In this document: one piece after another, positions 7,726-23,355 of the stretch
Layout: each line of letters opens with the position of its first letter
How positions within the stretch are numbered: the stretch's first letter is position 1
Assembly: GCA_001603275.1 (NCBI GenBank)
Contig: LUYM01000009.1
Location: 1 to 33,476 of the forward strand
Direction of reading: 5' to 3'
Source of the DNA: Actinomycetales bacterium Actino_02
GTDB taxonomy: Bacteria; Actinomycetota; Actinomycetes; Propionibacteriales; Propionibacteriaceae
DNA length: 33,476 nucleotides
The notes under the pieces: generated by a model
What the model was told of the DNA's origin: nothing
The model's database searches: none
The model's input: the letters and a program-made list of their open reading frames with translations, nothing else
Made by a program: the position numbers and the translations under genes

Positions 7726-8415
7726 TCAGGCGGCCGGCTTGCCGCCGGCCTCGAGGCGGCGATCCAGGCCGTTGCGCAACCCCCACAGGGCCAGCGCCGT
7801 CCGGTTCGCCGTCCCTGTCTTTCGCAGACTCTGGGCGATCTGGGCGCGCACCGTGTTCACGCTGATGCTCAGCTGGGTGGCGATCTCCTCGTTGGTGGTG
7901 AAGCCGCCACTCAGGTGGGAGACCACGGCCAGTTCGGCGGGGGAGAGCACCGTCCCGCCGGCCGGGCCGACGCCTTCGGGGCGCAGCTGCCGGCCACGTC
8001 GGACGAACTCGCGCACCACCTTGGTCACCACCCGGCTCGAGATCACGGCGTGGCCCTTGGCGGCGCTGCGAATCGCCGGGCCGAGATTGGGCAGGTCGTG
8101 ACGCCGCACCAGATAGCCGATCGCTCCGCAATCCAGGGCATTGGCCACCTGCTCGCGTTCGGAGTGGTCGCTGAGCACCAGTACCGGCACGGGCGAGTCG
8201 CCGGAGGTGATCGCTCGGATGGCTGCGAAACCTTCCGGCCGTTGCGGCTGCAGATCCAGCAGGACCAGATCCACCCGCTCGGAGCGAGCGATCCGGACCG
8301 CGTCCGGGTAGCTGGCCGATTCGGCGACCACCGCGACCCCGTCCGTGCCGTTCAACTGGTGCCGGATCAGCCGCCGATCTGCGCGATTGGCGTCGACGAC
8401 CAGGAGCCGAACCAT
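7726..8415 (-). CDS. NarL/LuxR-family response regulator with atypical receiver
   Basis: This 229-residue protein has a receiver domain (about 1-120) and a LuxR-type helix-turn-helix (about 155-215; LSPAEL at 157-162, recognition region around NEEIATQLSISVNTVRAQ). The phospho-acceptor position is kept as D54 (VLLDLQ). The usual acidic pair after beta-1 is reduced to D8-A9, and the invariant lysine of the YLxK motif is an arginine (YLVR, R104). These changes suggest weak or phosphorylation-independent signalling. The ATG at 8413-8415 follows a GGAGG site by five bases, which fixes the start although the frame is open upstream. No histidine kinase is adjacent. The gene is divergent from the phosphate operon, so it could regulate it, but nothing in the sequence proves this. 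Confidence 0.88.
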   Translation of the reverse strand: MVRLLVVDANRADRRLIRHQLNGTDGVAVVAESASYPDAVRIARSERVDLVLLDLQPQRPEGFAAIRAITSGDSPVPVLVLSDHSEREQVANALDCGAIGYLVRRHDLPNLGPAIRSAAKGHAVISSRVVTKVVREFVRRGRQLRPEGVGPAGGTVLSPAELAVVSHLSGGFTTNEEIATQLSISVNTVRAQIAQSLRKTGTANRTALALWGLRNGLDRRLEAGGKPAA

Positions 8416-8965
8416 GCCACCTCCGTGGATGCGGGAGTTGCGGGCGCGGTCGCGCCCAGACGGGAGTGCCCCCGCCTGAGGCAGAGTGTCGCGGGTCAAT
8501 CTGAACGCAAGATGACGGGCCGGTGAGCGCCCGGTGCGGGCTGCAGAAGGGGGTCTCCGCGGCGTGCTTTCGCGGCTATCCACGCGGACGAAATCGCATA
8601 GAACCGGTCCCACGCCCGGGTGACGGCATCCTGAGGATCTGCTGAGCGCTTTCTGGCCGGGACGCGCTGTGGGCCGCGAAAGATAGCCGGGCAGTCGAGC
8701 CTGCGCAATAGCTGCGCCGATGGCTTCCGACGCTGTTCATCTCGGGCCCACTTGGCGTCCATCTTCGCTCGCGGCGGCCTCGACACGTGGGTGGAGCCAC
8801 TCATGCCAGGCTGCCATCGGCCCGGCCAATCACCGGGTTGTGAACGGGGGATTTCCGAACGTGATCGGCGCGCAGATTGGTGGCTGGAAGGCCGCAATCC
8901 GGCGGGTGGCGACGATCGAGGCCGGTGGGTCGGCTGCAGTCGCGACTTGGCTTCCGGCGTCCACC
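8416..8965. other. 550-bp intergenic region between the divergent regulator and pstC
   Basis: I see no convincing gene here. Open frames on both strands have no ribosome-binding site and no recognisable domain. The region holds the candidate PHO box (8735-8767). The stretch from the box to about 8860 contains no TANNNT hexamer, so the pst promoter probably depends on an activator. Confidence 0.6.
8735..8767 (+). promoter_or_regulatory. Candidate PHO box (PhoP site) upstream of pstC
   Basis: Three contiguous 11-bp units are present: GTTCATCTCGG, then GCCCACTTGGC, then GTCCATCTTCG. Compared with the actinobacterial PHO unit G(G/T)TCAYYYR(G/C)G they match at 10, 8 and 9 of 11 positions. Tandem 11-bp units are the known arrangement for Streptomyces PhoP. 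The box lies about 200 bases before the pstC start. Confidence 0.6.
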
Positions 8966-9955
8966 ATGGAGCCGGCTGGAGTCGAGACCAAGCGACGCCT
9001 CGACGGCCGCGAGGTGCTGGCCGATCAGATCTTCCGCCGCACCGCCTTTGCCTCCGGGATCATCACCGTGGGGATCATGCTGGCGGTCGGTGTCTTCCTC
9101 ACCCTGCGGGCCTCCGATGCGCTGCGGGCGACCGGCCTGTCCTTCCTCTCCACCCAGGCCTGGTCGCCGGAGACCGGAACCTTCGGCGTCGCCGCGGTGT
9201 TGTTCGGGACGGTCTCGATCGCGCTGATCGCCTTGGCGGTGAGCCTGCCGCTGTCGCTGGGGACGGCCATGCTGCTGTCGGAGGTGGTCTCCGGACGCGT
9301 CCGCGGAATCCTGGTCTCTCTGGTCGACCTGATGGCCGCGGTGCCGAGCATCGTGTTCGGCCTGTGGGGGGTCTACTTCCTGCAGGCGGCGATCATCCCG
9401 GTCTCGCACTGGATCTCGGTGTGGCTGGGCTGGATCCCGATCTTCGCGGTCACCGATGCGGCCGGTCAGCAGGCCAGCGATGCCAGCGCCTTCACCTCCT
9501 CGGCGTTCATCGCCGGCATCGTCGTCGGGTTCATGGTCGTCCCCACCCAGACCTCGATCATGCGCGAGGCCTTCACCCGGGCACCGATCGGCGAGCGCGA
9601 GGGCGCCTACGCCCTGGGCGCGACCCGCTGGGGAATGATCCGCTCGGTGGTGCTGCCGTTCGGCAAGGGCGGCATCATCGGCGGCACCATGCTCGGCCTG
9701 GGCCGGGCACTGGGTGAGACCATCGCCGTCTACATGATCATTTCGCCGATCTTCACCATCAACTGGCAGGTGCTGAAGACCGGCACCAACTCGGTGTCGG
9801 CGCTGATCGCGCTGCGCTACGGCGAGGCCAGCGAGTTCGGGCTGTCTGCGCTGATGGCGGCCGGCCTGGTGCTGTTCCTGCTCACCTTGGTGATCAACTT
9901 CACGGCGTCCTCGGTGGTGGCCCGGTCGCGGTCGGGGGCGCAGAGCGATGGCTGA
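8966..9955 (+). CDS. pstC: Phosphate ABC transporter permease PstC
   Basis: PstC is one of the two membrane subunits of the high-affinity phosphate importer and pairs with PstA and the ATPase PstB. With the start at 8966 it has 329 residues and about six helices. The ABC-permease EAA loop is clear: EREGAYALGATRWGMIRSVV, followed by LPFGKGGIIGG. The PstC-type helix pattern SLPLSLGTAMLLSEVV and the ending GLGRALGETIAVYMII are also conserved. The start is uncertain. ATG 8966 lacks a strong ribosome-binding site, and a GTG at 8861 preceded by GGGGGA would add 35 residues; the region upstream of the first helix is poorly conserved in this family. The stop overlaps pstA by 8 bases. Confidence 0.93.
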   Translation: MEPAGVETKRRLDGREVLADQIFRRTAFASGIITVGIMLAVGVFLTLRASDALRATGLSFLSTQAWSPETGTFGVAAVLFGTVSIALIALAVSLPLSLGTAMLLSEVVSGRVRGILVSLVDLMAAVPSIVFGLWGVYFLQAAIIPVSHWISVWLGWIPIFAVTDAAGQQASDASAFTSSAFIAGIVVGFMVVPTQTSIMREAFTRAPIGEREGAYALGATRWGMIRSVVLPFGKGGIIGGTMLGLGRALGETIAVYMIISPIFTINWQVLKTGTNSVSALIALRYGEASEFGLSALMAAGLVLFLLTLVINFTASSVVARSRSGAQSDG

Positions 9956-11189
9956 CATCTACCGCACCGAGGTGCTGCCGAGCGTCCGCACCACCCTGCC
10001 CGGCACCAAGACCGAGGACGACGGGCCGCGCCGTCAGGTGCACGGCTTCACCGCGGCCCAGCGTTACGACGTATTCGGTGCGGCGGCTGCCGGGGTGGCC
10101 CTGGCCACCTTGCTGTTCGGCTGGTTCGCCCCGCTGAGCGGAGCGATCGGCTGGACCGTGGTGGCGTTCCTGGCCTTCCTTGGGCTGTACATGCTGCTGA
10201 TCTGGCTGCACTCGGACTTCGAAGAGGTCAAGGATCGCCTGATCACCACGCTGTTCGGGGCAGCCGGGACGCTGCTGTTCACGGTGCTGGTGTTCATCGT
10301 GATCTACACGCTGGGCCGCGGAACCGAAGCGCTCGGCCACCTGAACCTGTTCACCCAGACCATGAAGGACGCCGGCCCGCTGGACGGGCTGGACGTCGGC
10401 GGCATCCTGCACGCCATCGTCGGAACCCTGATTCAGATCTCGATCGCGCTGGCCATCACCATCCCGCTCGGGATCGGCACGGCGGTCTTCCTCAACGAGG
10501 TCGGCGGCAGGTTCGCCCGCTTCGTCCGAACGATCTCGGACGCCATGACCGCACTTCCCTCGATCGTGGCCGGCCTGTTCGTGTACGCGGCGGTCATTCA
10601 AGCCATCACCCACGAGCGCTCCGGGCTGGCCGCTGGCATTGCCATCACCGTGATGATGCTGCCGATCGTGATCCGCTCGGCCGACGTCGTGCTGCGGCTG
10701 GTGCCGCAGAACCTGCGCGAGGCGTCCTATGCGCTGGGGTCGTCGCGCTGGCAGACGGTCTGGCAGGTGGTGCTGCCGACGGCGCGCTCCGGCCTGGTCA
10801 CCTCGGTGATCCTGGGGACTGCGCGCGGTATCGGCGAAACCAGCCCCGTCCTGCTCACCTCGGGAATCACGGCCGCCATGAACGTCAACCCGCTGGCCGG
10901 CCCGATGATCTCGCTGCCGCTGCAGGTGTTCGACTTCGTCCGCTCGCCCGAGCCGACCATGGTGGCCCGCGGCTTCGGTACCGCCGCCGTGCTGCTGCTG
11001 CTGGTCCTCGTCTTGTTCCTGCTGGCCCGGGGCTTGGGCGGACGCGCCCCCGGCGAGCTTTCCGATCGTCAACAACTGGCCGCGCGCGCCGCCTCGCTGC
11101 GTGACCTGAAGCGGTTCGAGGCCCGTCGTCCGCTGGTCGCCCCGGTGGTCGCGGCCCGCGTCGGTGTGCGCAGTGAGGAGCAGTCATGA
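9948..11189 (+). CDS. pstA: Phosphate ABC transporter permease PstA (extended)
   Basis: This is the second membrane subunit of the phosphate importer. At 413 residues it is about 100 longer than typical PstA. The extra length is an N-terminal region with two additional hydrophobic segments (about 44-60 and 67-88) and a basic C-terminal tail after the last helix. The core is canonical: the GIGTAVFLNEVG helix, DAMTALPSIVAGLFVY, and the EAA loop REASYALGSSRWQTVWQVVL followed by GIGETSPVLLTSG. It overlaps pstC by 8 bases and pstS by 4 (ATGA), so the first three pst genes are tightly coupled. Confidence 0.95.
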   Translation: MADIYRTEVLPSVRTTLPGTKTEDDGPRRQVHGFTAAQRYDVFGAAAAGVALATLLFGWFAPLSGAIGWTVVAFLAFLGLYMLLIWLHSDFEEVKDRLITTLFGAAGTLLFTVLVFIVIYTLGRGTEALGHLNLFTQTMKDAGPLDGLDVGGILHAIVGTLIQISIALAITIPLGIGTAVFLNEVGGRFARFVRTISDAMTALPSIVAGLFVYAAVIQAITHERSGLAAGIAITVMMLPIVIRSADVVLRLVPQNLREASYALGSSRWQTVWQVVLPTARSGLVTSVILGTARGIGETSPVLLTSGITAAMNVNPLAGPMISLPLQVFDFVRSPEPTMVARGFGTAAVLLLLVLVLFLLARGLGGRAPGELSDRQQLAARAASLRDLKRFEARRPLVAPVVAARVGVRSEEQS

Positions 11190-12796
11190 GGTCGTCCCAG
11201 AGCAATCAGCATGCCGTCCGTCCGGGCTGGCGGCGGCTGGTCCGGCTGTCGGCGGCGCTGATCGCGCTCGGCCTAGCGCTGCCCTGGTCGGCCAGTCAGG
11301 CCGTGGCGGCCAGCTACTACCCGATCACCGGTTCGGGCTCGACCTGGTCACAGAATGCGCTAGATCAGTGGCGGGCCAATGTGGCCAAGAACTACGCCAT
11401 GACCATCAACTACTCCGGGATCGGCTCAACCTCCGGCCGTCGGGACTTCATCGACGGCACCGTCGACTTCGCCATCTCGGAGATCCCGTTCCAGGCCAAG
11501 CCGGAGGACGGTTCGGCGCCGGAGAAGCCGACTCACGACTACGCCTACATGCCGATCGTGGCCGGTGGCACCAGCTTCATGTACAACCTGAAGATCGGCG
11601 GCAAGCGGGTCACCAACCTGCGGCTGTCCGGCGACACCGTGGCCAAGATCTTCACCGGCGCCATCACCAAGTGGAACGACGCGGCCATCCAGGCCGACAA
11701 CCCGGGCCTGGCCATGCCGGCCAAGACGATCGTCCCGGTGATCCGCTCCGACGGCTCCGGAACTTCGGCCCAGTTCACCTTGTGGATGAGCAAGCAGTAC
11801 CCCTCGATCTGGAAGACCGGGATGACCTCCCAGTTCCCGAGCTTCGGCAACTCGAAGGCACAGAAGGGTTCCGACGGCGTGGCCGGCTATGTCTCGCAGA
11901 ACTACGGCGAGGGCGCCATCACCTACGTGGAGTACTCCTACGCCAAGAAGGCCGGCTTCCCGGTGGTGAAGCTGCTGAACAAGTCCGGCTACTACGTGGA
12001 GCCGACCGCTTCCTCGGTGGCGGTGGCCCTGATGCAGGCCAAAATCAACACCGACAAGTCGTCCGACAACTACCTCACCCAGATCCTGGACGGGGTCTAC
12101 AACGCCACCGACAAGCGGGCCTACCCGCTGTCGAGCTACTCCTACGCCATCGTGCCGACCGAGGTGGCCGGCATCTTCAACACCAACAAGGGCAACACGC
12201 TGGCCGCCTTCATGCGCTACGTGCTCTGCGAGGGTCAGCAGCAGGCCGGCACGCTGGGCTACTCGCCGCTGCCGATGAACTTGGTGATGGCCGGCTCGGA
12301 TCAGATCAAGCTGATCCCCGGCTCCGGCGGTAAGGGTGTGGATACCGGCAAGTGCAACAACCCGACCTTCAAGGCCGGGGATTCGCCCTCGAAGAACCAG
12401 CTGGCCCTGACGGCGCCCTACCCGGCCGACTGCGACAAGAAGGGGCCGACCCAGTGCACCATCGGTACCGGCGGCGCGAGTGCGTCCACCCCGACCTCGG
12501 GGCAGTCCGGGAACCCGAGCGCCAACCCGACCACGGGTGCGGGCACCGGCACGGGGACCGGGACCGGAACGGGGACGGGCTCGTCAGGCGGGGACGTCCC
12601 GACCTATGACGAGAACGGCAACCTGGTCAGCGGTGGCAGCGGGGACGGTGCGGTTTCCAAGCCGTTCACCCTTCCCGATCAGGGGATGGGGGCTTCACAA
12701 GGCCTGATGCTGGGAGCCGCACTGTTCCTGGTGGCTGCCGTGATCGTCCCGCCATTGGTCGGTCAGTGGCTCAAGACCGGGGGCCAGGGTGTCTAG
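11186..12796 (+). CDS. pstS: Phosphate-binding protein PstS, C-terminally membrane anchored
   Basis: This extracellular phosphate receptor delivers substrate to PstC/PstA. It has 536 residues, against about 370 for common PstS. A signal peptide (about 1-42, AVA-AS cleavage pattern) has no lipobox cysteine, so it is not a lipoprotein. The PBP fold follows, with phosphate-contact loops GSGST (49-53), GIGSTSGRRDF and DGSGTSAQF. After about residue 425 comes a Ser/Thr/Gly-rich linker containing a run of Gly-Thr dipeptides, then LPDQG, a hydrophobic helix (about 508-527) and a short tail. This looks like a membrane tether or a degenerate cell-wall sorting signal. The start overlaps pstA (ATGA) and the end overlaps the next gene by 8 bases. 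Confidence 0.95.
   Translation: MRSSQSNQHAVRPGWRRLVRLSAALIALGLALPWSASQAVAASYYPITGSGSTWSQNALDQWRANVAKNYAMTINYSGIGSTSGRRDFIDGTVDFAISEIPFQAKPEDGSAPEKPTHDYAYMPIVAGGTSFMYNLKIGGKRVTNLRLSGDTVAKIFTGAITKWNDAAIQADNPGLAMPAKTIVPVIRSDGSGTSAQFTLWMSKQYPSIWKTGMTSQFPSFGNSKAQKGSDGVAGYVSQNYGEGAITYVEYSYAKKAGFPVVKLLNKSGYYVEPTASSVAVALMQAKINTDKSSDNYLTQILDGVYNATDKRAYPLSSYSYAIVPTEVAGIFNTNKGNTLAAFMRYVLCEGQQQAGTLGYSPLPMNLVMAGSDQIKLIPGSGGKGVDTGKCNNPTFKAGDSPSKNQLALTAPYPADCDKKGPTQCTIGTGGASASTPTSGQSGNPSANPTTGAGTGTGTGTGTGTGSSGGDVPTYDENGNLVSGGSGDGAVSKPFTLPDQGMGASQGLMLGAALFLVAAVIVPPLVGQWLKTGGQGV
12541..12582 (+). repeat. Gly-Thr coding microrepeat in the PstS linker
   Basis: A run of GGNAC(C/G)-type hexamers encodes alternating Gly and Thr just before the C-terminal helix of PstS. 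It makes a flexible spacer and is a likely site of length variation by slippage. Confidence 0.6.
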
Positions 12797-15047
12797 TCGC
12801 ACGATGCGCCGTCCGCTGGCTGCGGCCCTGCTGATCCTGATCATGCTGAGTCTGTCCGGGACGCCGCTGGCCGCCACCTCGGCCCGTGCCGACAGCGGTA
12901 CGGGGTCAGCCGTGACCGTCCGCGCCGCCGACTACGACCCGGACGTCGCCGACTCGCCCTTCCCGAACCTGGCCGTCACCGTCTCCCAGACCAAGGATCT
13001 GATCCAGCAGGGCATCACGGTGAGCTGGACCGGCGGCAAGCAGTCGACGGTTCCGAGCACTCAGACCGGCGGGGAGAACTTCCTGCAGATCATGCAGTGC
13101 TGGGGCGACGAGCCCGGCAGCAACGGCACCCGTCCGGACCGGACGACCTGTCAGTATGGCGGGCTGAATGTCCCCGGCGACTCACGCTGGTCTACCCGGA
13201 CTCCAGAGACCCAGATCCCCCCGCAGGACACCGATATCACCGCTATCGGCGAGGACTACTTCCACCCGACGGTCACGGCGGTGCCGTTTCGATCGGCAAC
13301 CGGAGTGACCTTGGCCAGTGTCGCCGGCGGGGCCCGGGTGCCCGATGCGCCGGACCTCAACAGCAATGAGTTCTTTACTCGCTACACCACCAATGAGGTC
13401 TCCTGGGCAGGTTCAGATGCCGACGGTAAGGGTTCGGTGTCCTTCGAGCTCCAAACTGCGCAGGACTCACCGGGACTCGGCTGTGGCGCTGCGGTCACCG
13501 GTGCCGACGGCGCTGTGTCGGGTGCCTCCTGCTGGCTGGTGATCGTTCCTCGCGGCGATGCGGATGCATCGTTGACCAGCATCACGAAGTCGGGGTTGTT
13601 CTGGGAGACCTGGAAGCACCATCTGGCTGTTCGGCTCAGCTTCCAGCCTGAGGGAGTGCGCTGTGCGATCGGTGCCGCCGAGCGTCAACTCTCCGGCAGC
13701 GAGCTGATGCTCGGCGCAGTGGGCCAGTGGCAACCGACGCTCTGCGGGCGGTCCGGTGGAGCTGTCTACTCGCTGCTCACCGGCCCGGAGTCCGACGCCG
13801 CGCTGGCCGCCAACGGAACCGATCCGGCCCCGTTGGCCCTCACTTCCCAGGCGCTGGCCACGGATGGCGGGTCGGACTCGCTCGCCTATGCCCCGATCGC
13901 CGTCACCGGCGTTTCTGTTGCTTTCGCGATTGATCGCAAGGCGCGAGTGATCGGCGCGCCGGTGCCCGCAGAGGTGGCCGCTAAGGAGCGTCAGGCCTTC
14001 AGCAGCATGAAGCTGACTCCCCGACTGCTTGCCAAGCTGCTGACCGGCTCCTACACCGATGCTCTGCCACTCGGCGCGAATCTGTCGCACATCTCGAAGA
14101 TTCGCAACATCACCCAGGACCCCGATTTCCTGGCGATCAACGACCCGGAGTGGGCGTCGATGAACATCACTGGCCCCGGCGTTGGTGACCTGCTGGTGCC
14201 GCTGGGCCGCTCTGATGCCGCTGTCGCCGTCTGGAAGTACATCCTCGCCGACCCGGACGCGGCAGCCTTCCTCGCTGGCAAGCCTGACCCGTGGGGAATG
14301 AAGGTAAACCCCTACTACTCGACAAATGCCAAGGTCAATCCGACCAAGGCCGCCCTCGGGCTGCCCGCTCAGGACTTCCCCAAGGCCGATCCGGTGGAGT
14401 TCAAGGGCACGGCGAACTATGACTATGCCGACTCCATCAATCTGGTCACCTGGCGCCCGTACACCTCCGGTCTGCAGATGGGTGCCTACCGGGTGCTCAC
14501 CGGAGACCCCCAAGCGCTCGGAGGTTGGGATCCCAACTCGCAGCCGCCGAAGTACGGCAAGGGCAGCCGAGCGCTGGTCGGACTGCAGGCGGTGATCGGA
14601 CTCACTGACACCGCCTCCGCCGAGCAGTATCAGGTGGTGCAGGCCTCGCTGCGGAATCCCGCAGGCAGGTACGTCCTGCCCAGCGCCAGTTCGCTCTCCG
14701 CAGCGGCCTCGGCAATGGTCAAGGACAAGAAGCAGCCGCAGGTCGTCGGCTTCGACCCGACCTCCACTGCGGCCAAGAAGGCAGCTGCCGCCTACCCGCT
14801 CACCATGCCGGTATACGCGGCAGTCAACCCGGCCATGAAGGATGCCGCCGTACGTGCGGACTACGCGAACTTCATCACCTTCGCAGCAGGAAGCGGACAG
14901 CAGCCCGGCACCGGCGACGGCCAGCTTCCTGCTGGTTACACGCCGCTTCCCGACTCGTGGCGAGCGCAGGCGCGAGAGCGGCGGGTTCCCGCCGGAGCCG
15001 ACTCCGAACCCCACGACGGCGATTCCGACGTCTGCGGCTACCGGTAA
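12789..15047 (+). CDS. Large PstS-like substrate-binding protein (reading frame breaks near the 3' end)
   Basis: This frame encodes 752 residues from a GTG that overlaps pstS by 8 bases. A signal peptide (about 1-35) is followed by a unique domain of about 300 residues with conserved-looking cysteines (MQCWGDE, TTCQYGG, GLGCG, GASCW). A PBP-type segment follows (YAPIAVTGVSVAFAID and KLTPRLLAKLLTGSY, the PstS hinge patterns). The last 24 residues after WRAQAR look non-natural. From 14974 a +1 frame continues as a proline/threonine-rich linker and a membrane anchor, so the native protein is probably about 820 residues. It is likely an auxiliary phosphate receptor tethered to the membrane. It could equally bind another oxyanion or play a structural role. 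Confidence 0.8.
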   Translation: MSSRTMRRPLAAALLILIMLSLSGTPLAATSARADSGTGSAVTVRAADYDPDVADSPFPNLAVTVSQTKDLIQQGITVSWTGGKQSTVPSTQTGGENFLQIMQCWGDEPGSNGTRPDRTTCQYGGLNVPGDSRWSTRTPETQIPPQDTDITAIGEDYFHPTVTAVPFRSATGVTLASVAGGARVPDAPDLNSNEFFTRYTTNEVSWAGSDADGKGSVSFELQTAQDSPGLGCGAAVTGADGAVSGASCWLVIVPRGDADASLTSITKSGLFWETWKHHLAVRLSFQPEGVRCAIGAAERQLSGSELMLGAVGQWQPTLCGRSGGAVYSLLTGPESDAALAANGTDPAPLALTSQALATDGGSDSLAYAPIAVTGVSVAFAIDRKARVIGAPVPAEVAAKERQAFSSMKLTPRLLAKLLTGSYTDALPLGANLSHISKIRNITQDPDFLAINDPEWASMNITGPGVGDLLVPLGRSDAAVAVWKYILADPDAAAFLAGKPDPWGMKVNPYYSTNAKVNPTKAALGLPAQDFPKADPVEFKGTANYDYADSINLVTWRPYTSGLQMGAYRVLTGDPQALGGWDPNSQPPKYGKGSRALVGLQAVIGLTDTASAEQYQVVQASLRNPAGRYVLPSASSLSAAASAMVKDKKQPQVVGFDPTSTAAKKAAAAYPLTMPVYAAVNPAMKDAAVRADYANFITFAAGSGQQPGTGDGQLPAGYTPLPDSWRAQARERRVPAGADSEPHDGDSDVCGYR

Positions 15048-15252
15048 CCCGGTGCCCACCGTGGCCGACACCACCGCGGCCAGTGACCCGACAGCGACTG
15101 GAAACGAAGCCGGCCAGCTGGCCGGGCCGACCACGCCCGCCGACCCAAATCTCGGCGCTGCGGCCACGGTGGTTCCGGCGACAGCAGCGGTGGGTATGGC
15201 GGCCGTCCTCGGGGTTCCCTTCATGTCCCGCTTCCGGCGGAGACGACTATGA
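14974..15252 (+). pseudogene. Out-of-frame C-terminal anchor of the large PstS-like gene
   Basis: Read one base ahead of the upstream gene, this segment encodes 92 residues: a Pro/Thr-rich linker beginning ESGGFPPEPTP, then a hydrophobic helix (about VVPATAAVGMAAVLGVPF) and a basic tail SRFRRRRL. Its codons keep the G/C third-position bias of real genes here. The design (linker, helix, basic tail) is what the truncated upstream product lacks and what PstS has. This indicates a 1-base insertion (real or from sequencing) or +1 programmed frameshifting somewhere in 14960-14980. Confidence 0.7.
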
Positions 15253-15277
15253 CGGCCACTGCCGTCACCACAGACAA

Positions 15278-15314
15278 CCGGGCGGGGGCCGCCTTGGAAA
15301 ACGCCCCCGCCCGG
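15278..15314 (+). terminator. Hairpin between the second and third PstS-like genes
   Basis: A perfect 12-bp GC-only stem, CCGGGCGGGGGC with GCCCCCGCCCGG, encloses a 13-base loop. It lies 50 bases before the next start codon. It could be a terminator or attenuator, or an mRNA processing or stability element that makes expression of the downstream secreted proteins different from that of the transporter genes. Confidence 0.65.
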
Positions 15315-15364
15315 AGGGTCGCCGCGTCCGCGGACGACCAGGTACTGCAAGGAAAGGATCTCAC

Positions 15365-16528
15365 ATGAAGATCAAGAGGCCTCTGGTCCTCGGTGTGGCT
15401 GCAGGAATCATCCTGTCGACCGTCGCCGTGGTGACCCCGGCTTTCGCTGACCCGGTCTCCAACAGCTACGCAATCGTTGGCTCGGATACCCTTCAGTCCG
15501 CCGTTGACGCTCTGACCAATGGGACTGACGCCACCGGCGCGCGGGTTCGCATCCTGGCCGGCAGCGCGAGCATCGGCAACTTCGACGCTTTCGCTCCCGG
15601 CTACAACGTGGCCGGCGGCACCATTCAGACCAAGCCGGCCGGGAACGCCTTTGCCCGTCCGAGCGGCTCCGGGGCTGGCGTGGACGCGCTGGTCGCCTCC
15701 ATCAACAACACCACCTACGGCGCGAATGGCGTCGCGGCGGTGAACGTCGGCGGCCTGGTCGACATCGCTCGGTCCTCCGCCCCGCCGGCGAGCCCGAAGG
15801 CCAACGGAATCCTCGCCTGGGTGCCGTTCGGCCGAGACGCTGTTGCCTACGCCTATGTGGGCGGTAGTGAGGCTGACGCCACCAACGTGGCCAACCTCTC
15901 GGCTTCTCAGCTCAACGCCATCTACGGCGCGAGCTCTGACCAGGTCATCAACGGGACCACCATCAAGGCCTACCTGCCGCAGAGTGGCTCTGGCACGCGC
16001 AAGTTCTTCCTCGGTGCGATCGGTATCTCCAACAACACCGCTGGCACCGCCGTCTACACCAACAGCAACACCTTGGCCGAGAACGATGCGACAGTGTTCC
16101 CCACATCGATCCCGAGTGGCACTGCCTACATCGTGCCGTTCTCCGCGGCGAACTGGGTTTCCCAGAAGAACGGCGTGGCTCCGAACACCATTCCGGCCTC
16201 GGGTGCGGTTCGGCTTGGCACGCCGCTCAAGGACGGATCGGACAACCCGATTCCGGCCGTGACCGGAACCAGCCCGCTGGCTCCGAACCCGACCTACTAC
16301 TCCAACTCGACCTTCGGCCGGGACACCTACCTGGTGGTTGAGGCTGCGCGGATCGACTCGACCAATACCGCCAAGTACGACGCCACGCTGGCCAAGCTGC
16401 TCGACCCGAGCCGCCCGTCCAGCCTGGTCAACATGAGCACCTCGGCATCCTCGGCCGGTGGAGTGAAGCGTGTTTACGGCTTCCTCACTGTGTCCGACAC
16501 CACGGTGCTGCGTTCGGACACCAAGTGA
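15365..16528 (+). CDS. Secreted PstS-like (PBP-fold) protein
   Basis: This 387-residue protein starts at an ATG preceded by the ribosome-binding sequence GGAAAGGA. A signal peptide (about 1-29, ending AFA-DP) lacks a lipobox, and no C-terminal helix is present, so it should be released or held by other proteins. The PBP-like pattern is visible: IVGSDTLQSAVDALTNG near the N-terminus, RPSGSGAGVDAL, then VPFGRDAVAYAYVGG and LPQSGSGTRKFFLGAIG, equivalent to phosphate-contact loops of PstS. The second Ser-Gly-Ser-Gly-Thr loop is well kept, so oxyanion binding is plausible. It sits between the anchored binding protein and the WxL-domain gene, 35 bases upstream of the latter. Confidence 0.82.
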   Translation: MKIKRPLVLGVAAGIILSTVAVVTPAFADPVSNSYAIVGSDTLQSAVDALTNGTDATGARVRILAGSASIGNFDAFAPGYNVAGGTIQTKPAGNAFARPSGSGAGVDALVASINNTTYGANGVAAVNVGGLVDIARSSAPPASPKANGILAWVPFGRDAVAYAYVGGSEADATNVANLSASQLNAIYGASSDQVINGTTIKAYLPQSGSGTRKFFLGAIGISNNTAGTAVYTNSNTLAENDATVFPTSIPSGTAYIVPFSAANWVSQKNGVAPNTIPASGAVRLGTPLKDGSDNPIPAVTGTSPLAPNPTYYSNSTFGRDTYLVVEAARIDSTNTAKYDATLAKLLDPSRPSSLVNMSTSASSAGGVKRVYGFLTVSDTTVLRSDTK

Positions 16529-16563
16529 TCCCGGCCCATCACGACTCTTCGAAAGGTACGACT

Positions 16564-18237
16564 ATGAACGCTTCATTGCGTCGTATCGGGGCGGGCACGC
16601 TCGCCGCCCTGATCGCATCCGTCGGCTTCGCCGGCACGGCCTTTGCAGCAACCGAGCCCACCACCTTCCCGTCGGGTTCTGATGCTCCGGTGTACCTGGT
16701 GGATGCCGACACGAACACGGGTTACGCAGCGGGCACGCAGCTCGAGTGGGACTCTCCGCTCGGCGTCGTCCTCTCTGCTGTTGCCGCCCCGACCGCCCCG
16801 ACCGACACCGCTCCGATGCGGCTGCCGTTCGTCTCGGGATCTCTCACCGAGACGCCGTTCATCTCAGCTCCGGGTGCGGAGCGCACGCCGTCCAGCTGGA
16901 AGGCCTGGGCCGACGAGGTCAACCTGAACAACAAGGGCGCATTCCTCCCGAACGTCACTCCGATCGGTCTGGGGTACGGCAGCCAGTCGAGCATCCTGAG
17001 TGCCGGTGGCACCTTCAGCCTGGGCGTTGCCTACCGCAGCGGCCCCACCACGGTGACCGCTGCGTACTTCACCACGATCAACGTGGACGCCACGACCGGC
17101 ACCTGGAAGTTCGCCACTCCAGTCACCATTACAGACGTGGCCACCACCACCACGCTGGCTGCCGACGCGACCTCGGTCGACCTCGGTAACTCGGTCACCC
17201 TGACCGCGACTGTGGCCGCCTCGGGCAAGACCCCGTCGGGCAACGTCGAGTTCTACAAGGGCGCCACCAAGCTGGCTACCCGGGCACTGTCCAGCGGCTC
17301 CGCGTCCTATGCGGTGACCCCGGATGCCACCGGCACCCAGACCTACTCGGCCAAGTTCGTCGAGAACACCGTCGGCAGCGACAAGTTCCTGGCATCTACC
17401 TCGTCCGACCTGTCGGTCGAGGTCACCACGCCGCCCCCGCCGGTCGTTCCGAATGCTCCCACCGAGGGTGCGCTGAACTCCGGCACGGCCAACGGCGCCA
17501 CGGCGAGCTACGACGCCACCACGCACAAGGTCACCCTGAACGTGGACGCGGCGAACAACGCGAAGTCCGTGAACGTGTTCGCCTACTCCACCGCGACCTT
17601 CCTCGGTACTCAGACCGTGACCGACGGCAAGGTGGTGGCTGATGCCTCCGGCCTCGCCGCCGGCACCCACAAGGTGGCCATCGTCGACCCGACGACCTAT
17701 GAGGTCATCGCCTGGGCCGACTTCGACAAGACCGACGCCGCGATCAGCCCGTCGATCACCAAGACCATCAACGCCGAGGCCGCTGCGGTGGCCCCGAGCG
17801 ACGGTGAGTTCTCGCTGACCAACCTCAGCGGCGACACCGTGAACCTGACCAACCCGGCGATCGTCAACGGCAAGTCCGTCGTGTCCGGCACCCTGGGCAG
17901 CTTCAAGGTGACCGACCTGCGTCAGGTCTCCAAGCCGGGCTGGAACCTCCAGACCAGCGTGACCGACTTCACCAAGGGCACCGACACGATCGCGGCCTCC
18001 GCGCTCGGCATCAAGCCCAAGGCCGTCTCTCAGGTCGGAACCGACGCCACCGCTCCGACCCTGGGTGACGAGCAGGTCTCGGGCAGCGCCAGCTACCCGT
18101 GGTACTTCGCCACCCTGGCTGCCGGCAAGTACTCCGGTACCAGCACCTACGATGCCGACCTCACCTTCACCGCTCCCGCGGGCAAGCCGGCCGGCACCTA
18201 CACCTCCACCCTCACCCTGACGCTGATCTCCCAGTGA
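16564..18237 (+). CDS. Surface protein with Ig-like and C-terminal WxL-like domains
   Basis: This 557-residue secreted protein starts at an ATG with GAAAGG about eight bases upstream. It has a signal peptide (about 1-29, TAFA-AT), an N-terminal domain (30-195) of unknown family, a bacterial Ig-like domain of the Big_3 type (about 200-295: TTTTLAADATSV, NSVTLTATV, GNVEFYKGATKL), a proline linker (TPPPPVVPNAPT) and a second beta-rich domain. The C-terminal 150 residues resemble a WxL domain: W460-N-L462 followed by TSVTDF, and a final YTSTLTLTL motif at 546-554 that mirrors the distal YxAxLTWTL motif. WxL domains bind peptidoglycan non-covalently in Firmicutes. A DUF916 partner gene follows, as in classical WxL loci. 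A strong hairpin lies downstream. Confidence 0.8.
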   Translation: MNASLRRIGAGTLAALIASVGFAGTAFAATEPTTFPSGSDAPVYLVDADTNTGYAAGTQLEWDSPLGVVLSAVAAPTAPTDTAPMRLPFVSGSLTETPFISAPGAERTPSSWKAWADEVNLNNKGAFLPNVTPIGLGYGSQSSILSAGGTFSLGVAYRSGPTTVTAAYFTTINVDATTGTWKFATPVTITDVATTTTLAADATSVDLGNSVTLTATVAASGKTPSGNVEFYKGATKLATRALSSGSASYAVTPDATGTQTYSAKFVENTVGSDKFLASTSSDLSVEVTTPPPPVVPNAPTEGALNSGTANGATASYDATTHKVTLNVDAANNAKSVNVFAYSTATFLGTQTVTDGKVVADASGLAAGTHKVAIVDPTTYEVIAWADFDKTDAAISPSITKTINAEAAAVAPSDGEFSLTNLSGDTVNLTNPAIVNGKSVVSGTLGSFKVTDLRQVSKPGWNLQTSVTDFTKGTDTIAASALGIKPKAVSQVGTDATAPTLGDEQVSGSASYPWYFATLAAGKYSGTSTYDADLTFTAPAGKPAGTYTSTLTLTLISQ

Positions 18238-18312
18238 TCTGGGACGGGTGAGGGCAGGCCGTCTTTCGCCAGCGGTGACTGTCCCCATCCGTTCAGATCA
18301 GCGTCAGTCCCA

Positions 18313-18355
18313 GGCGCGTCCGCACGCGGGTTTCAGCCCCGGGTGCGGACGCGCC
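18313..18355 (+). terminator. Strong hairpin after the WxL-domain gene
   Basis: A perfect 13-bp stem, GGCGCGTCCGCAC (18313-18325) with GTGCGGACGCGCC (18343-18355), has a 17-base loop. A second small hairpin, CCCC-TTTT-GGGG, follows immediately. It should end or attenuate transcription before the next promoter region. Confidence 0.8.
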
Positions 18356-18384
18356 GCCTGCCCCTTTTGGGGGTCGTCGATTTC

Positions 18385-18417
18385 GTTCGTCCGCCGTTCA
18401 CCCGGCGGTCTGATAGC
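18385..18417 (+). promoter_or_regulatory. Candidate second PHO box, upstream of the DUF916 gene
   Basis: Three contiguous 11-bp units are present: GTTCGTCCGCC, then GTTCACCCGGC, then GGTCTGATAGC. They match the PHO unit G(G/T)TCAYYYR(G/C)G at 9, 10 and 7 of 11 positions. The second contains the exact GTTCACC core. The site lies 39 bases before the start codon and just after the hairpin, as expected for an internal promoter that reaches pstB. Confidence 0.55.
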
Positions 18418-18456
18418 CGCCACACAACAGATTTGTGAAGGACAAAGGGTAGAGCC

Positions 18457-19620
18457 ATGACCTCTGCGACCCTCCGCCGATTCGGCGCTCTGATCGCTGC
18501 AGCAGTACTCGGCCTGGGCGGCGTGGTGCTGACGACCGGAGTGGCGCACGCCGAAGACACCGTCGGGATCGGCATCTCGCCGGCCGACACCAAGGGCAAG
18601 CCGGACGGCCGCAGCCGGTTCACCTATCAGGCCAAGCCCGGCCAGACGCTGACCGATCACGTCCGAGTGACCAACACCGGTTCCTCCAAGATCGAGGTCA
18701 CCCTGTACGCGGCGGACGCCTACAACGACGAGAACGGCGACTTCGCCCTCGCCGACGGCTCGGAGAAGAAGACCGGTGCGTCCGCCTGGGTCACCTTCGA
18801 CGGACGTCCCAAGCTGGGCCTGACCCTCAAACGTGGCGAGTCGAAGACCGTCCCGTTCACCGTCACCATCCCCGCCGACGCCGGCCCCGGCGACCATCCG
18901 GCCGGCGTGATCGCCTCCGCGGTCACCAGCGGGCAGGTCACCGTCGAGCGCCGCATCGCGAACCGGATGTACGTCCGGGTATCCGGTGACCTCCAGCCGA
19001 TCCTCACCATCACCAGCTTCTCCGGGGTCTACCACTCCGGGCTGAACCCGCTGGACGGCTCGATCAGCGTGACCGCCACCATCACCAACAGCGGCAACGT
19101 CGCCCTGGAAGGCGCGACAACGCTCACTGCCAGCACCTGGTTCGGGGCTGCCATCGGACGCACCTCGCGAGCCGAACTGCCCGAGATCCTGCCCGGCAGC
19201 ACCACCACGGTGAACTACGAGATCACCGGCGTCCCGCAGGTCGGCTTCGCCTCGGTCCGGATGCTGCTCCAGGGCGGCATCTCCGGCGATGCCCCCGACC
19301 CCGGCCCGCTGCCGGTGATCCAGCGTGACCTGCTGATCGCCGCCATCCCGTGGGCGATCGTGGCCGTGCTGCTGCTCGGCGGTGTGGTCTGGCTGGTGCT
19401 GTGGCTGCGTCGCCGCCGCGAGGACCGCTATGCCCGGGAGTGGATGGCCCACACCGAGGCCGAGGCGGCGGCCCGGGCCGCTGAGGCCGATGCCCAAGAG
19501 TTGGCTGTGGCGGTGGCGTCCGGATCGCTGGCCGCACAGCGGGCGATCCTGCCCGACGACGTCGCCGGCGGCTCGGTGTGGACGCACAGCGATGATCCCG
19601 ACGGGCAGGACCCCCAGTGA
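18457..19620 (+). CDS. DUF916-type (WxL-interacting) membrane-anchored surface protein
   Basis: This 387-residue protein has a signal peptide (about 1-30, AHA-ED), a DUF916-like beta-sandwich (about 32-160: IGISPAD, FTYQAKPGQTLTDHVRVTN, GESKTVPFTVTIPAD) and a second immunoglobulin-like domain similar in placement to DUF3324 (about 170-275). A membrane helix follows at about 290-314, then RRRR and a cytoplasmic alanine/glutamate-rich coil. In Firmicutes, DUF916-DUF3324 proteins (WxIP) bind both WxL proteins and peptidoglycan, so this is the expected partner of the upstream WxL-like protein. An AAGGG sequence precedes the ATG. The stop overlaps the next start as GTGA. Confidence 0.85.
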   Translation: MTSATLRRFGALIAAAVLGLGGVVLTTGVAHAEDTVGIGISPADTKGKPDGRSRFTYQAKPGQTLTDHVRVTNTGSSKIEVTLYAADAYNDENGDFALADGSEKKTGASAWVTFDGRPKLGLTLKRGESKTVPFTVTIPADAGPGDHPAGVIASAVTSGQVTVERRIANRMYVRVSGDLQPILTITSFSGVYHSGLNPLDGSISVTATITNSGNVALEGATTLTASTWFGAAIGRTSRAELPEILPGSTTTVNYEITGVPQVGFASVRMLLQGGISGDAPDPGPLPVIQRDLLIAAIPWAIVAVLLLGGVVWLVLWLRRRREDRYAREWMAHTEAEAAARAAEADAQELAVAVASGSLAAQRAILPDDVAGGSVWTHSDDPDGQDPQ

Positions 19621-20408
19621 GGCGCAGACGCGCCCGTGAGCTGACACCGCTGCTGCTGGGCCTGGTGCTCAGTGGCAGCCTGTTGCTGGCCGCCTCCGGG
19701 CTGGCCCCACGGGCGAGCGCCGATGACAGCATCGGCCTGAGCGTGGACGTCTTGTCGACCAGTCCGTCGCCGAGCTCGACCACATCGTCCACTCCGAAGG
19801 CATCGTCCACCTCGTCGTCGAGTTCGAGCGCTCCCGAGCCGACCGTGGCCGGCACCGAGGGCACCGGCACGCCTACCGACGGGCCGAGTACGGGTGAGGT
19901 GGAACTGGGCGGGCTGCTCTACGTCAGCGGTTTGGGCTGGAGCTACACCCCGTCGCTGAACCCGGCGGCCGGTGCGCTGGAGTTGAACTTCACCGTCCGC
20001 AACGCCTTCACCAAGCCGGTCGACGCCAGTGCCCAGTTCTGGGTGACCGGGATCTTCGGCCAGGTGATCGGCCAGTCGGCCACCGTCGGCGTGCTCAGCC
20101 TGCAGCCGGGGGAGACCCGGACGGTCTCGACCACGATCAGCGGAATGGCGCAATGGACGGTGGTGACGGCCCGAATGGTCTTCACCCCGCCGCCACGGCT
20201 CGGTTCGCAGAGCCTCAGCCCCGTCCATCGCGAGGAGGTGGTCTGGTTCCTGCCCTGGTTCGTGATCCTGCTGGCCGCGCTCGGAGGCGCCGGCTTCGTG
20301 GGCTGGCGCTGGTGGCGGGGACGTTCCGGCAACCCGGACGAGGCTGCAGCCGAAGCCACGCCGGACCCTGCCGGTGACCAGCCCGCGCCGGAAGCCGGGG
20401 TCGAATGA
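19617..20408 (+). CDS. Membrane-anchored extracellular protein, second WxIP-like subunit
   Basis: This 263-residue protein starts at a GTG overlapping the upstream stop. A basic N-terminus and signal helix (about 10-33, cleavage near RASA-DD) lead to a Ser/Thr-rich linker (about 45-80, likely extended and possibly glycosylated). A single beta-sandwich domain (about 95-200) follows, with the LNPAAGALELNFTVRN and LQPGETRTVSTTISG patterns that also occur in the second domain of the upstream DUF916 protein. A membrane helix at about 210-230 leads to an acidic Pro/Ala-rich cytoplasmic tail. It looks like a shortened paralogue that keeps only the membrane-proximal domain. No enzymatic motif is seen. 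Confidence 0.78.
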   Translation: MRRRRARELTPLLLGLVLSGSLLLAASGLAPRASADDSIGLSVDVLSTSPSPSSTTSSTPKASSTSSSSSSAPEPTVAGTEGTGTPTDGPSTGEVELGGLLYVSGLGWSYTPSLNPAAGALELNFTVRNAFTKPVDASAQFWVTGIFGQVIGQSATVGVLSLQPGETRTVSTTISGMAQWTVVTARMVFTPPPRLGSQSLSPVHREEVVWFLPWFVILLAALGGAGFVGWRWWRGRSGNPDEAAAEATPDPAGDQPAPEAGVE

Positions 20409-21421
20409 GTCAGCATTTCGGGGCCGCAGGAGCCGGCGCCGTCCTGGAGGCGCCGCGTCCGTCCGCTGCAGAGCCGGGTCGCCGCTCCAGCGGCACGGTG
20501 GCCCCCGGCACCCCCGACCGTTTCCGGCGTCCGCCCAAGCGGCTGCCCCGCCAACTCCCGCAGTATGCGCCGCTGACCCGCACTCAGCTGCTGATCCGCG
20601 GCAGTCTCGGGCTGGTGGCTGCACTGCTGGCCGCCTTCCTGATCGACCTGGTCGGGCTCAGCCACCTGCAGCACGTGATCGCGCAGCAGCAAGCCAGAGA
20701 CCTGTTCACCGCCCAACTGGCCGACGGCACCGCCCCGGTCAACGAGGGCGATGTGGACGGCGTCCTGCTCGCCGACGGTGCTCCGGTGGCTCGGCTGGAG
20801 ATCCCGGCACTGGGGATCAGCGAGATCGTCGGCGAGGGCACGACGTCGTCCGTGCTGGCCAAGGGGCCCGGCCATCGCCGGGACACCCCACTGCCGGGAC
20901 AAGGCGGCGTCAGCGTGATCATGGGTCGGGCCAGTGCCTTCGGCGGTCCGTTCGCCAGGATCCAGGAACTGCCTCCCGGCGAGGCGATCAGTGTGGTCAC
21001 CGGCCAGGGGGAGCAGCTGTTCCGGGTGATCGGAGTGCGCTACGCCGGCGATCCAGCGCCGGCCGCACCGGCCACCGGACGCTCCCGGATGGTGCTCGAG
21101 ACGGCGCGCGGCGGACCCTACTTCCCGCAGGGCGTGGTCCGAGTGGACGCCGAACTGGTCTCGGCCACCCAGGCCAACGGCGGCCGGATGACCACCTCCG
21201 CCTCGCTGCCGGGCAATGCCCGCGAGCTGGCCGGCGACTTCAGTAGGGCCTGGGCCTTGGTCTTCGCGCTGCAGCTGCTGGTGGTCGCCGAAATCGCTGC
21301 CAGCTACGCCTATCGCCGGTTCGGCTGGTCGCGAACCTGGGTGGTGTTCGTCCCGGTGCTCACCCTGAGCTGTCTGCTGGTCGCCGACCAGATCGTCCGA
21401 TTCCTGCCCAACCTGCTATGA
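20405..21421 (+). CDS. Sortase-fold membrane protein lacking the catalytic residues (pseudo-sortase)
   Basis: This 338-residue protein overlaps the upstream stop (ATGA). A Pro/Arg-rich cytoplasmic region (1-58) is followed by a membrane helix (62-84), an extracellular domain (about 110-255) and two C-terminal helices (about 283-303 and 311-334). The middle domain aligns well with class E/F sortases: VARLEIPALGI, EGTTSSVLAKGPGH, TPLPGQGGVSVIMG and FGGPF. At the catalytic histidine (sortase GH-R) it has R175, at the TLxTC cysteine it has A234 (LETA), and the following arginine position is G243. It therefore cannot be a transpeptidase by the known mechanism. A scaffold or ligand-binding role in the pst/WxL assembly is inferred from context. 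Confidence 0.82.
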   Translation: MSQHFGAAGAGAVLEAPRPSAAEPGRRSSGTVAPGTPDRFRRPPKRLPRQLPQYAPLTRTQLLIRGSLGLVAALLAAFLIDLVGLSHLQHVIAQQQARDLFTAQLADGTAPVNEGDVDGVLLADGAPVARLEIPALGISEIVGEGTTSSVLAKGPGHRRDTPLPGQGGVSVIMGRASAFGGPFARIQELPPGEAISVVTGQGEQLFRVIGVRYAGDPAPAAPATGRSRMVLETARGGPYFPQGVVRVDAELVSATQANGGRMTTSASLPGNARELAGDFSRAWALVFALQLLVVAEIAASYAYRRFGWSRTWVVFVPVLTLSCLLVADQIVRFLPNLL

Positions 21422-21473
21422 GCTCGACCCAGGCGGACGACACCGCCGAACTGATTGTGAGGACTACTAGCCG

Positions 21474-22460
21474 ATGAGCGTACCTGACCGAGTGGTTGAA
21501 CCGACCCAGCCGCTGCCGGCCGTCCCCGCGCCGACGCCGAGTTGGACGGCGACGGTCGCCCCAGCCATGGCCGAGCCGGTGTCGCCGGTGCCGCCGACGC
21601 CGTTGCGTGCCGGTGGGCACCCCGCCCCGGCACCGATCGCCCCCGCACCGATGGCCCCGGCACCGATGGCCCCGGCGATGCCGAAACTCTCCGGGCTCGA
21701 AGCCCGCGCGATCTCAGCCTGGTTCGGTGAGCGCAAGGTGCTCGACCGGGTCTCACTCGACATGCCGCCGGGGGTGATCACCTCGCTGATCGGTCCGTCC
21801 GGCTGTGGCAAGTCCACCTTCCTGCGAATCCTGAACCGGATGCACGAACTGGTTCCGTCCGCGTCTCTGGCCGGTGAGGTGCTGCTCGACGGCGACGACA
21901 TCTACGACCGACGCCACAAGCTGGTCGATGCCCGCAAGAAGATCGGCATGGTCTTCCAGAAGCCGAATCCGTTCCCGGCCATGTCGATCTACGACAACGT
22001 CGTGGCCGGGCTCAGCCTGACCGGGGTGAAGGTCGATCGGGATCACCGCGACCAGCTCGTCGAGACCAGCCTGGCCCGGGCCGGGCTGTGGAACGAGGTC
22101 AAGGACCGGCTGCGTCAGCCCGGCGGCGGCCTGTCCGGTGGCCAGCAGCAGCGGCTCTGCATCGCCCGGTCGCTGGCCGTGAAGCCGGCGATTCTGTTGA
22201 TGGACGAGCCCTGTTCGGCGCTCGACCCGACCTCGACCCGAGTGATCGAGGAGACCATGCTCGAGTTGCGCAACGAGGTGACCATCGTGATCGTCACCCA
22301 CAACATGCAGCAGGCCCAGCGCGTCTCCCAGCAGTGCGCGTTCTTCCTTGCCGCGCAGGGCCAGCCGGGCGTGATCGTCGAGCACGGCGATACCGACGCC
22401 ATGTTCTCCACTCCGCAGGATTCCCGGACGCATGACTACGTCACTGGCCGATTTGGCTGA
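21474..22460 (+). CDS. pstB: Phosphate ABC transporter ATPase PstB with a long N-terminal extension
   Basis: PstB hydrolyses ATP to drive phosphate import through PstC/PstA. The ABC core starts at about residue 72 and is complete: Walker [10 protein letters not shown] (107-115), Q-loop [10 protein letters not shown], signature LSGGQQQR, Walker B ILLMDEP, then SALDP and the switch histidine in IVTHNM. The protein has 328 residues against about 255 for usual PstB. The extra 70 N-terminal residues are Pro/Ala-rich and include a tandem API/APM repeat. A GAGGA site precedes ATG 21474; an internal ATG near 21678 would give a standard-length protein. It lies 52 bases after the pseudo-sortase gene and overlaps the transglycosylase gene by 29 bases. 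No phoU is seen in the window. Confidence 0.95.
21630..21674 (+). repeat. 15-bp tandem repeat in the pstB extension
   Basis: Three 15-bp units lie head to tail, GCACCGATCGCCCCC and then twice GCACCGATGGCCCCG. They encode the Ala-Pro-Ile/Met-Ala-Pro repeat of the PstB N-terminal extension. Confidence 0.85.
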
Positions 22461-23355
22461 CCCGCTCGCCGCGGCTTCGGACCCAGCTCGCACGTCTGTT
22501 CCGGCCGCGGAGCAGACGCCGGCAGCCGTTCCCGGGGGAGGGGGACGGCGCTGGCGCTCGGTGGTCACCAAGCTGGTGTCGGTGGTGCTGGTGTTCGCCG
22601 CCGCGGCCGGTGGGATCGTGGTCCTGGCCGCAAGCGCATCCGCCCGGACGGTGAACCCGGAGATCCCGGTCGCGCAGCCGGCCCCGGTGATCGGCGAGCC
22701 GGTGACCGACGAGGCCGTGGCCGAGGAGCCGGTCTCGGATCAGGCTTCGCCGAGCCCGACGGCAACGAGTGCGCAGTCGACCTTCGCGCCGCGGTACACC
22801 GCGGACACCGGGTGGCTGCGCCGCGTCGCGGCTGCCACCGGGATCCCGACGCGTGCCTTGGCCGGCTATGCCTCGGCGGCGATCGGCCTGACCAAGGAGC
22901 AGCCGGCCTGCGGACTGTCCTGGAACACGCTGGCCGCGATCGGTGCCGTCGAATCCAGTCACGGCCAACATCAGGACGGGCAGTTGCTGGAGTCGGGTCT
23001 GTCCAGTGTGCCGATCCGCGGCCCGGCTCTCGACGGCAGTGGATTGGGCATGATCCGAGACTCCGACAACGGGGTCTGGGACGGTGACAGCACCTGGGAT
23101 CGAGCGGTCGGGCCGATGCAGTTCATTCCAGCCACCTGGCGGCGCTGGGGTGCCGATGGCAATGGGGACGGCAAGGCCGATCCGAACCAGATCGACGACG
23201 CCGCGCTGGCCGCCGGCCGCTACCTGTGTGCGTCCGGGTCGTTGCGCAGCCCGTCCGGGTGGCGGACCGCGATCTACTCCTACAACCACTCCGACGCCTA
23301 CGTCGACAAGGTCGCCGGCGTCGCCAACAGCTATGCGGCGGCCAGCGCCGGCTGA
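22432..23355 (+). CDS. Lytic murein transglycosylase (MltB/SLT type)
   Basis: This enzyme cleaves the MurNAc-GlcNAc bond of peptidoglycan, forming 1,6-anhydro ends. The 307-residue protein has a single N-terminal membrane helix or uncleaved signal (about 44-69), a Pro/Glu/Ser-rich linker (70-120) and a catalytic domain (about 125-300). The general acid is E174 in [13 protein letters not shown]. The family motifs [13 protein letters not shown] and [23 protein letters not shown] are intact, followed by [15 protein letters not shown]. The start overlaps pstB by 29 bases, so it belongs to the same transcript. Wall cleavage could make room for the envelope-anchored phosphate-binding assembly. Confidence 0.92.

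Follow-up and report, generated by a model that had tools for sequence, protein, structure and literature searches.

The DNA analysed here, a 33,476-nucleotide (nt) stretch of Actinomycetales bacterium Actino_02 (contig LUYM01000009.1, contig 9 of a 3.05-Mb assembly; hereafter the window), holds a cluster in which a Pst importer is joined to wall proteins and to a pseudosortase, a protein with a sortase fold and no catalytic residues. Many actinobacteria carry a second Pst importer built in this way. On balance, we think that the cluster specifies a second, phosphate-starvation-induced Pst importer of Actinomycetota with its own wall-spanning capture apparatus. A first-pass annotation of the window had proposed a wall-linked phosphate-capture assembly on a Pst importer; conservation of the cluster and a link to PHO boxes speak for that idea, but the annotation missed that this is a second system and that its wall module is optional. 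The gene content that it listed, pstC, pstA, pstS and pstB with inserted genes, is confirmed on the + strand at about 8966–23355:

8966..9955, +: pstC, permease; TIGR02138, 233 bits (cut-off 196.45); start inferred from relatives, with longer open reading frames from 8720
9948..11189, +: pstA, permease; TIGR00974, 225.8 bits (cut-off 193.45)
11186..12796, +: pstS1, phosphate-binding protein with signal peptide and C-terminal membrane anchor; TIGR00975, 233.5 bits (cut-off 205)
12789..15047, +: pstS2, large PstS-fold protein; frame broken near 14972, C-terminal anchor in another frame to ~15250
15365..16528, +: pstS3, secreted PstS-like protein with altered pocket; PF12849, 29.6 bits (cut-off 27)
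16564..18237, +: secreted protein with Ig-like (Big_3_5) and C-terminal WxL-like domains; PF16640, 52.4 bits; predicted model with a pLDDT of 93.7
18313..18355, +: 18-nt inverted repeat, terminator-like hairpin between both gene groups; z-score −4.1 for the 91-nt stretch 18290–18380
18385..18402, +: PHO-box-like direct repeat; 12/14 matches, 72 nt before the WxLIP start
18457..19620, +: WxLIP (DUF916) protein with C-terminal membrane anchor; PF06030, 40.6 bits (cut-off 27.3); hydrophobic at 287–319
19617..20408, +: membrane-anchored partner resembling the second WxLIP domain; BLAST likeness to WxLIP residues ~180–335
20405..21421, +: pseudosortase, sortase fold without catalytic His or Cys; PF04203, 42.6 bits (cut-off 26.6); PDB 5uus, E-value 1.1e-13
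21474..22460, +: pstB, ATPase with N-terminal extension of ~70 residues; TIGR00972, 343.0 and 343.7 bits (cut-off 343.2)
22432..23355, +: lytic transglycosylase, optional member; PF13406, 35.6 bits

Conservation and spread

The first-pass reading depended on the neighbourhood being kept in relatives, and it is kept: several families share the arrangement, and a second class has it in altered order. Matches to the DUF916 protein occur in 16 of 117 genomes of the family, the window's included; the 17 regions fetched from other family genomes comprise 8 with the whole Pst arrangement and 9 with a WxLIP gene without pst. Scanning named genomes with an alignment of the sortase-fold protein found 256 relatives, and the best 80 of these include Propionibacteriaceae, Microbacteriaceae, Cellulomonas, Streptomyces, Jiangella, Kineosporia and Amycolatopsis. 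Among these best 80 of 256, pstB is present in 79; the exception (L120) stops at a contig edge. Searching 394 genomes of the class with PstS2 gave 111 with E ≤ 0.001, the weak ones mostly touching the PstS-like end, and strong matches (<1e-40) in 53 genomes with 14 family labels, at 60 places. Outside the window lie 59 of these places, 40 of which were fetched. Each of the 29 PstS2-led loci with at least 7.5 kb downstream holds PstA, PstS1 and the pseudosortase, and 27 hold pstB and PstS3.

Pooling yielded 124 loci with a pseudosortase, 62 of them with sufficient flanking sequence: 34 came from the scan of named genomes and 27 from unlabelled ones, and the window is the last. PstS2 is found in all 62 full loci, PstS1 in 61, PstS3 and pstB in 59 each and PstA in 54 (PstC was left out of the count); in L054, one of the three full loci without pstB, the gene is present in two pieces. 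The remaining members are less constant, with a WxL-like protein in 36 of the 62, the partner in 33 and the transglycosylase in 23, so the transglycosylase, which the first-pass annotation had counted in, is present in the window but is not a core member. One genome can enter the locus sets under two names, so that they overlap somewhat; of the 124 rows for the pseudosortase, 116 are distinct. The sets are weighted towards Microbacteriaceae and Streptomyces. Of 198 genomes sampled across the phylum, 4 pass 1e-30, and two of these, of one genus, are from another class. There the order is pstC-pstA-pstS1-pstS2-pseudosortase-pstB-pstS3, with WxLIP last; linkage retained despite a changed order argues for a joint function.

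Some loci differ in layout. L196, L197 and L201 have pstB upstream of pstA/pstC. Two pseudosortase clusters, L174 and L175 (genomes G175 and G250), have no pstB nearby, and the same genomes hold a second cluster with pstB. Genome G016 carries two cluster copies (L031 and L034) whose PstB proteins are near-identical even though their PstS2 proteins diverge strongly, sharing ~62% and ~30% identity with that of the window; pstB may have been exchanged recently or homogenized by gene conversion.

Coexistence with an ordinary Pst

The genome also holds an ordinary pstB elsewhere (G000, contig 7; TIGR00972), beside pstS-pstC-pstA and next to a gene that, by its sequence, looks like a polyphosphate kinase. 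When 14 family genomes were tested, all 10 cluster bearers had a second pstB (358–380 bits), and 20 cluster-bearing genomes of other families, drawn from the 53, each have another strong pstB (365–387 bits) besides one of 330–351 bits. Another pstB is thus present in 30 of 30 cluster-bearing genomes tested; the surroundings of the ordinary gene were inspected in 8 regions, all of the window's genus. The ordinary PstB proteins of the family form one clade, a branch length of 2.0 apart from the cluster PstB.

Three PstS-like proteins and a sortase fold

PstC, PstA and PstS1 all exceed the equivalog cut-offs of phosphate transporters. PstS1 matches a PstS of known structure (PDB 8ods, E-value 1.2e-35), has hydrophobic stretches at 18–36 and 501–530, and keeps the equivalents of T10 (T or S), S38, R135 and SG(T/S) in nearly all rows, the residues of the phosphate site being numbered as in E. 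coli PstS. The second PstS-like protein of the first-pass annotation stands as a predicted PstS fold, with an extra N-terminal domain and a membrane anchor, but its phosphate site is lost: GSTW is replaced by GSEL (E305 is invariant in 61) and RSDGSGT by GRSDxA, a residue correspondence taken from an hhalign alignment with a probability of 44%. The third is present as claimed. PstS3 lacks an equivalent of Asp56, its Arg is near-invariant, and the motifs GSDT, RPxGSGxG, ARSS and QxxSGTR are near-invariant over 110 rows.

The pseudosortase had been recognized correctly. Its sortase fold is flanked by one N-terminal and two C-terminal membrane helices, and a catalytic His or Cys occurs in none of 124 rows; the His place is taken by R (122) or K (2), and the Cys place by A (113), S (9), T (1) or V (1).

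An optional, exchangeable wall module

For the protein claimed as a WxL-like surface protein, 14 of 45 aligned domains match Pfam WxL (best 5.1e-7), but the window's own domain misses that model. We refer to the product of the gene between PstS3 and WxLIP, or between PstS3 and the pseudosortase, as the slot protein; PF13731 (WxL) is matched by 10 of 73 of them. The DUF916 protein is above its cut-off, and the second anchored protein after it, also annotated before, shares 23–33% identity with the second domain of the former. Slot proteins are found in 74 of 81 loci, 57 with WxLIP and 17 without, and 10 of these 17 have an LAxTG-type end by a simple pattern; two more Cryobacterium loci (L076 and L078) carry an LASTG protein that the automatic gene choice missed. 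The wall module is therefore optional and exchangeable, and since the anchoring mode varies while the rest of the cluster is constant, wall anchoring would be the job of this module.

Some Streptomyces and Jiangella genes 3′ of pstB (L116:11701–12444 and L115:14407–15675) show sortase-like GHD and LQ(S/T)C motifs by eye, and their products have no Pfam sortase match. They could be active partners of the LAxTG protein.

The nine WxLIP genes without pst (L032 and L035–L042) mark a separate actinobacterial WxL cluster; a WxL-like domain adjoins in 4 of these 9 regions.

Candidate control sites

A PHO box consists of two GTTCACC-like units with an 11-nt period, as set out in passages of PMC4415409. 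Sites were scored as two GTTCACC units at that period, 14 being perfect, with simple shuffles as nulls. Ordinary pst genes, all of the window's genus, have PHO boxes of 12–14 in 8 of 8 cases. Before the first cluster gene, a score of at least 12 occurs in 16 of 52 loci with that stretch (0 of 260 shuffles), and in the 320 nt before wxlip, the WxLIP gene, in 17 of 85 (null 2 of 425). Such scores precede pstS2 in 6 of 118 (null 1 of 590), pstS3 in 8 of 122 (null 0 of 610) and pstS1 in 1 of 109, and none precedes the partner (70), the pseudosortase (121) or pstB (118). Within −150 to −60 of wxlip, an interval picked after the 320-nt result was seen, a score of 11 is reached by 31 of 78 distinct stretches and one of 12 by 16; the corresponding counts are 5 and 0 for 1560 shuffles and 1 and 0 for 78 stretches of a control interval. 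The nine WxLIP genes without pst all score 9 or less. The PHO-box-like repeats before wxlip point to an independent link to phosphate.

The one window site scoring at least 12, at 18385, lies inside the 219-nt gap before the DUF916 gene, with the hairpin just upstream. Of 67 distinct gaps, 50 have a stem of at least 12 pairs; among 1340 simple shuffles, 125 attain the stem value of the gap from which they were made, all in gaps with stems below 10. Because the 219-nt gap holds both the 18-nt inverted repeat and this PHO-box-like site, the cluster is probably not one operon: the single interleaved operon of the first-pass annotation stands for its gene set and is probably split at this point. 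Its statement that most junctions overlap by 4–8 nt was too strong. Such overlaps occur at 5 of 10 junctions, in a table for which three starts were moved by one codon; the other five comprise one overlap of 29 nt and gaps of ~35, 52, 219 and ~317 nt, the last due in part to the broken frame of PstS2.

A tRNA-Asp called by ARAGORN inside pstS1 (11657–11729, − strand) lacks Rfam support. Near the cluster, 26160–28019 on the − strand encodes a leucine-rich-repeat protein with a signal-peptide-like start (PF12799).

A proposed assembly and its rivals

In the proposed assembly, PstC, PstA and PstB would form the importer, and PstS1, held at the membrane by its C-terminal helix, would pass phosphate to it. 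Secreted PstS3 probably captures an oxyanion, either within the wall or beyond it. PstS2 and the pseudosortase would serve as non-binding, non-catalytic scaffolds that position the binding proteins over the importer, and the WxL protein, WxLIP and the small partner would tie the assembly to peptidoglycan, a role that may fall to an LAxTG-type surface protein in other lineages. Transcription is probably split, with one unit from pstC to the WxL gene, then the hairpin, and then a putative PhoP-driven promoter for wxlip, the partner, the pseudosortase and pstB. The analysis itself establishes the gene content, its conservation and linkage, the second pstB, the missing active and binding residues, the predicted folds and the enrichment of PHO boxes and hairpins; phosphate as the cargo, the scaffolding, the anchoring to the wall and the induction are proposals built on these.

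Several observations weigh against this proposal. Glu stands at the PstS1 equivalent of Asp56 in 106 of 114 rows and the window PstB sits at its family cut-off, so that something other than plain phosphate may be carried. The PstS2 frame of the window is broken, likeness to a same-genus relative stopping near 14972 and resuming at 14974 in another frame; the gene is in one frame in the family relatives read, and the break may be a mutation or an assembly error. Many loci lack the wall module (37 of the 62 full loci and 14 of the 29 PstS2-led ones have WxLIP), and the core function therefore cannot depend on it. As to control, most wxlip relatives score below 12 (68 of 85), the narrower interval before wxlip was a later choice, the window's PHO box is imperfect, no PHO box was found before its pstC (best score 10), and the two other-class loci have a single site of 12 (L213) and no such site (L214). 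The window hairpin has no clear T-run and is not among the 5 sites of a terminator scan, for which reason its role as a terminator can only be suggested.

The strongest rival is that the importer carries another phosphorus compound, such as organic phosphate, polyphosphate fragments or wall-polymer phosphate. PstS3 and PstS1 would catch this compound, and its release in the wall would be helped in some species by the transglycosylase. The second pstB in every cluster bearer tested, the altered pocket of PstS3 and the Glu of PstS1 all fit this view; the rest of the PstS1 phosphate site is kept, however, PstC, PstA and PstS1 pass phosphate-transporter cut-offs and the transglycosylase is optional, and we regard it as rather unlikely. 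We give still less credence to a phosphate sensor rather than a bulk importer, in which PstS2, PstS3 and the pseudosortase would report wall-side phosphate through PstB to Pho signalling. Pst transporters do signal in the Pho system, and two of the cluster's most constant members belong to families that lack binding or catalytic residues. Yet a scan of the window finds no PhoU, kinase or regulator among the cluster genes, the neighbouring regulator at 7726–8613 has a LuxR-type (GerE) domain, and a complete PstC/A/B suggests transport.

That a surface or adhesion cluster is merely co-regulated with Pst and has no role in uptake seems to us very doubtful. WxL and WxLIP do also occur apart from Pst, as in 9 of the 17 fetched family regions, but the pseudosortase, PstS1 and PstA accompany PstS2 in all 29 full PstS2-led loci, PstS3 and pstB do so in 27, and another class keeps the linkage in a different order. 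A fortuitous neighbourhood or an artefact of assembly, to which the one broken frame might point, is refuted by recurrence in many genomes and has next to no probability. We retain the phosphate-starvation-induced second importer as the most economical reading.

To our knowledge, it is poorly understood how single-membrane bacteria join binding proteins and substrates across a thick wall. A widespread second Pst with wall proteins, a sortase fold without an active site and a PstS fold lacking its phosphate site would give a genetic handle on this crossing, would extend the Pho regulon of actinobacteria, a regulon that influences antibiotic production in Streptomyces, and would tie WxL and WxLIP proteins to a defined cellular process. 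Among the matches listed in open-licence full text we found no description of this cluster, although subscription papers or preprints may have one; the first-pass annotation knew of no described link between WxL/WxIP loci and phosphate uptake. A word search of the available text of a WxL survey (PMC9772566) finds neither 'actinobact' nor 'phosphate', the portion seen of a paper on the carrier genus Herbiconiux only lists pst genes (PMC10011130), and the only systems called universal in the passages seen of a review of phosphate transport in Streptomyces and related bacteria are PstSCAB and Pit (PMC7866108).

Comparison with known systems

The cluster shares with Csc/WxL clusters a DUF916/WxLIP protein adjoining a protein with a C-terminal WxL-like domain. 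Those of Firmicutes, which hold more than 91% of WxL sequences (PMC9772566, in part), comprise small WxL, large WxL and DUF916 proteins and often an LPxTG protein (PMC9772566; see also PMC1534035). The window differs in having one WxL-like protein, no small WxL and a junction with Pst, and WxLIP_HBD (DUF3324) is not among the Pfam matches of its proteins. The pseudosortase resembles class E sortases in fold (class_E_sortase, 46.9 bits, besides the 5uus match), but its score is far under the class E cut-off of 160 bits, and it differs by the missing His and Cys of all 124 rows and by its two C-terminal membrane helices.

Mycobacteria have several PstS proteins in one organism, and the PDB entries 1pc3 and 4lvq matched here are presumably mycobacterial PstS; here, in contrast, two of three pockets are lost or changed, and the proteins are encoded in a single cluster with wall proteins. 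With ordinary PstSCAB the cluster shares the PstC, PstA and PstS1 families, a PstB at the edge of its family cut-off and, in part of the loci, a PHO box in front. It differs in its order, C-A-S...B, in its two extra PstS-fold or PstS-like proteins, in the pseudosortase and wall module placed inside it, and in a PstS1 anchored by a C-terminal helix.

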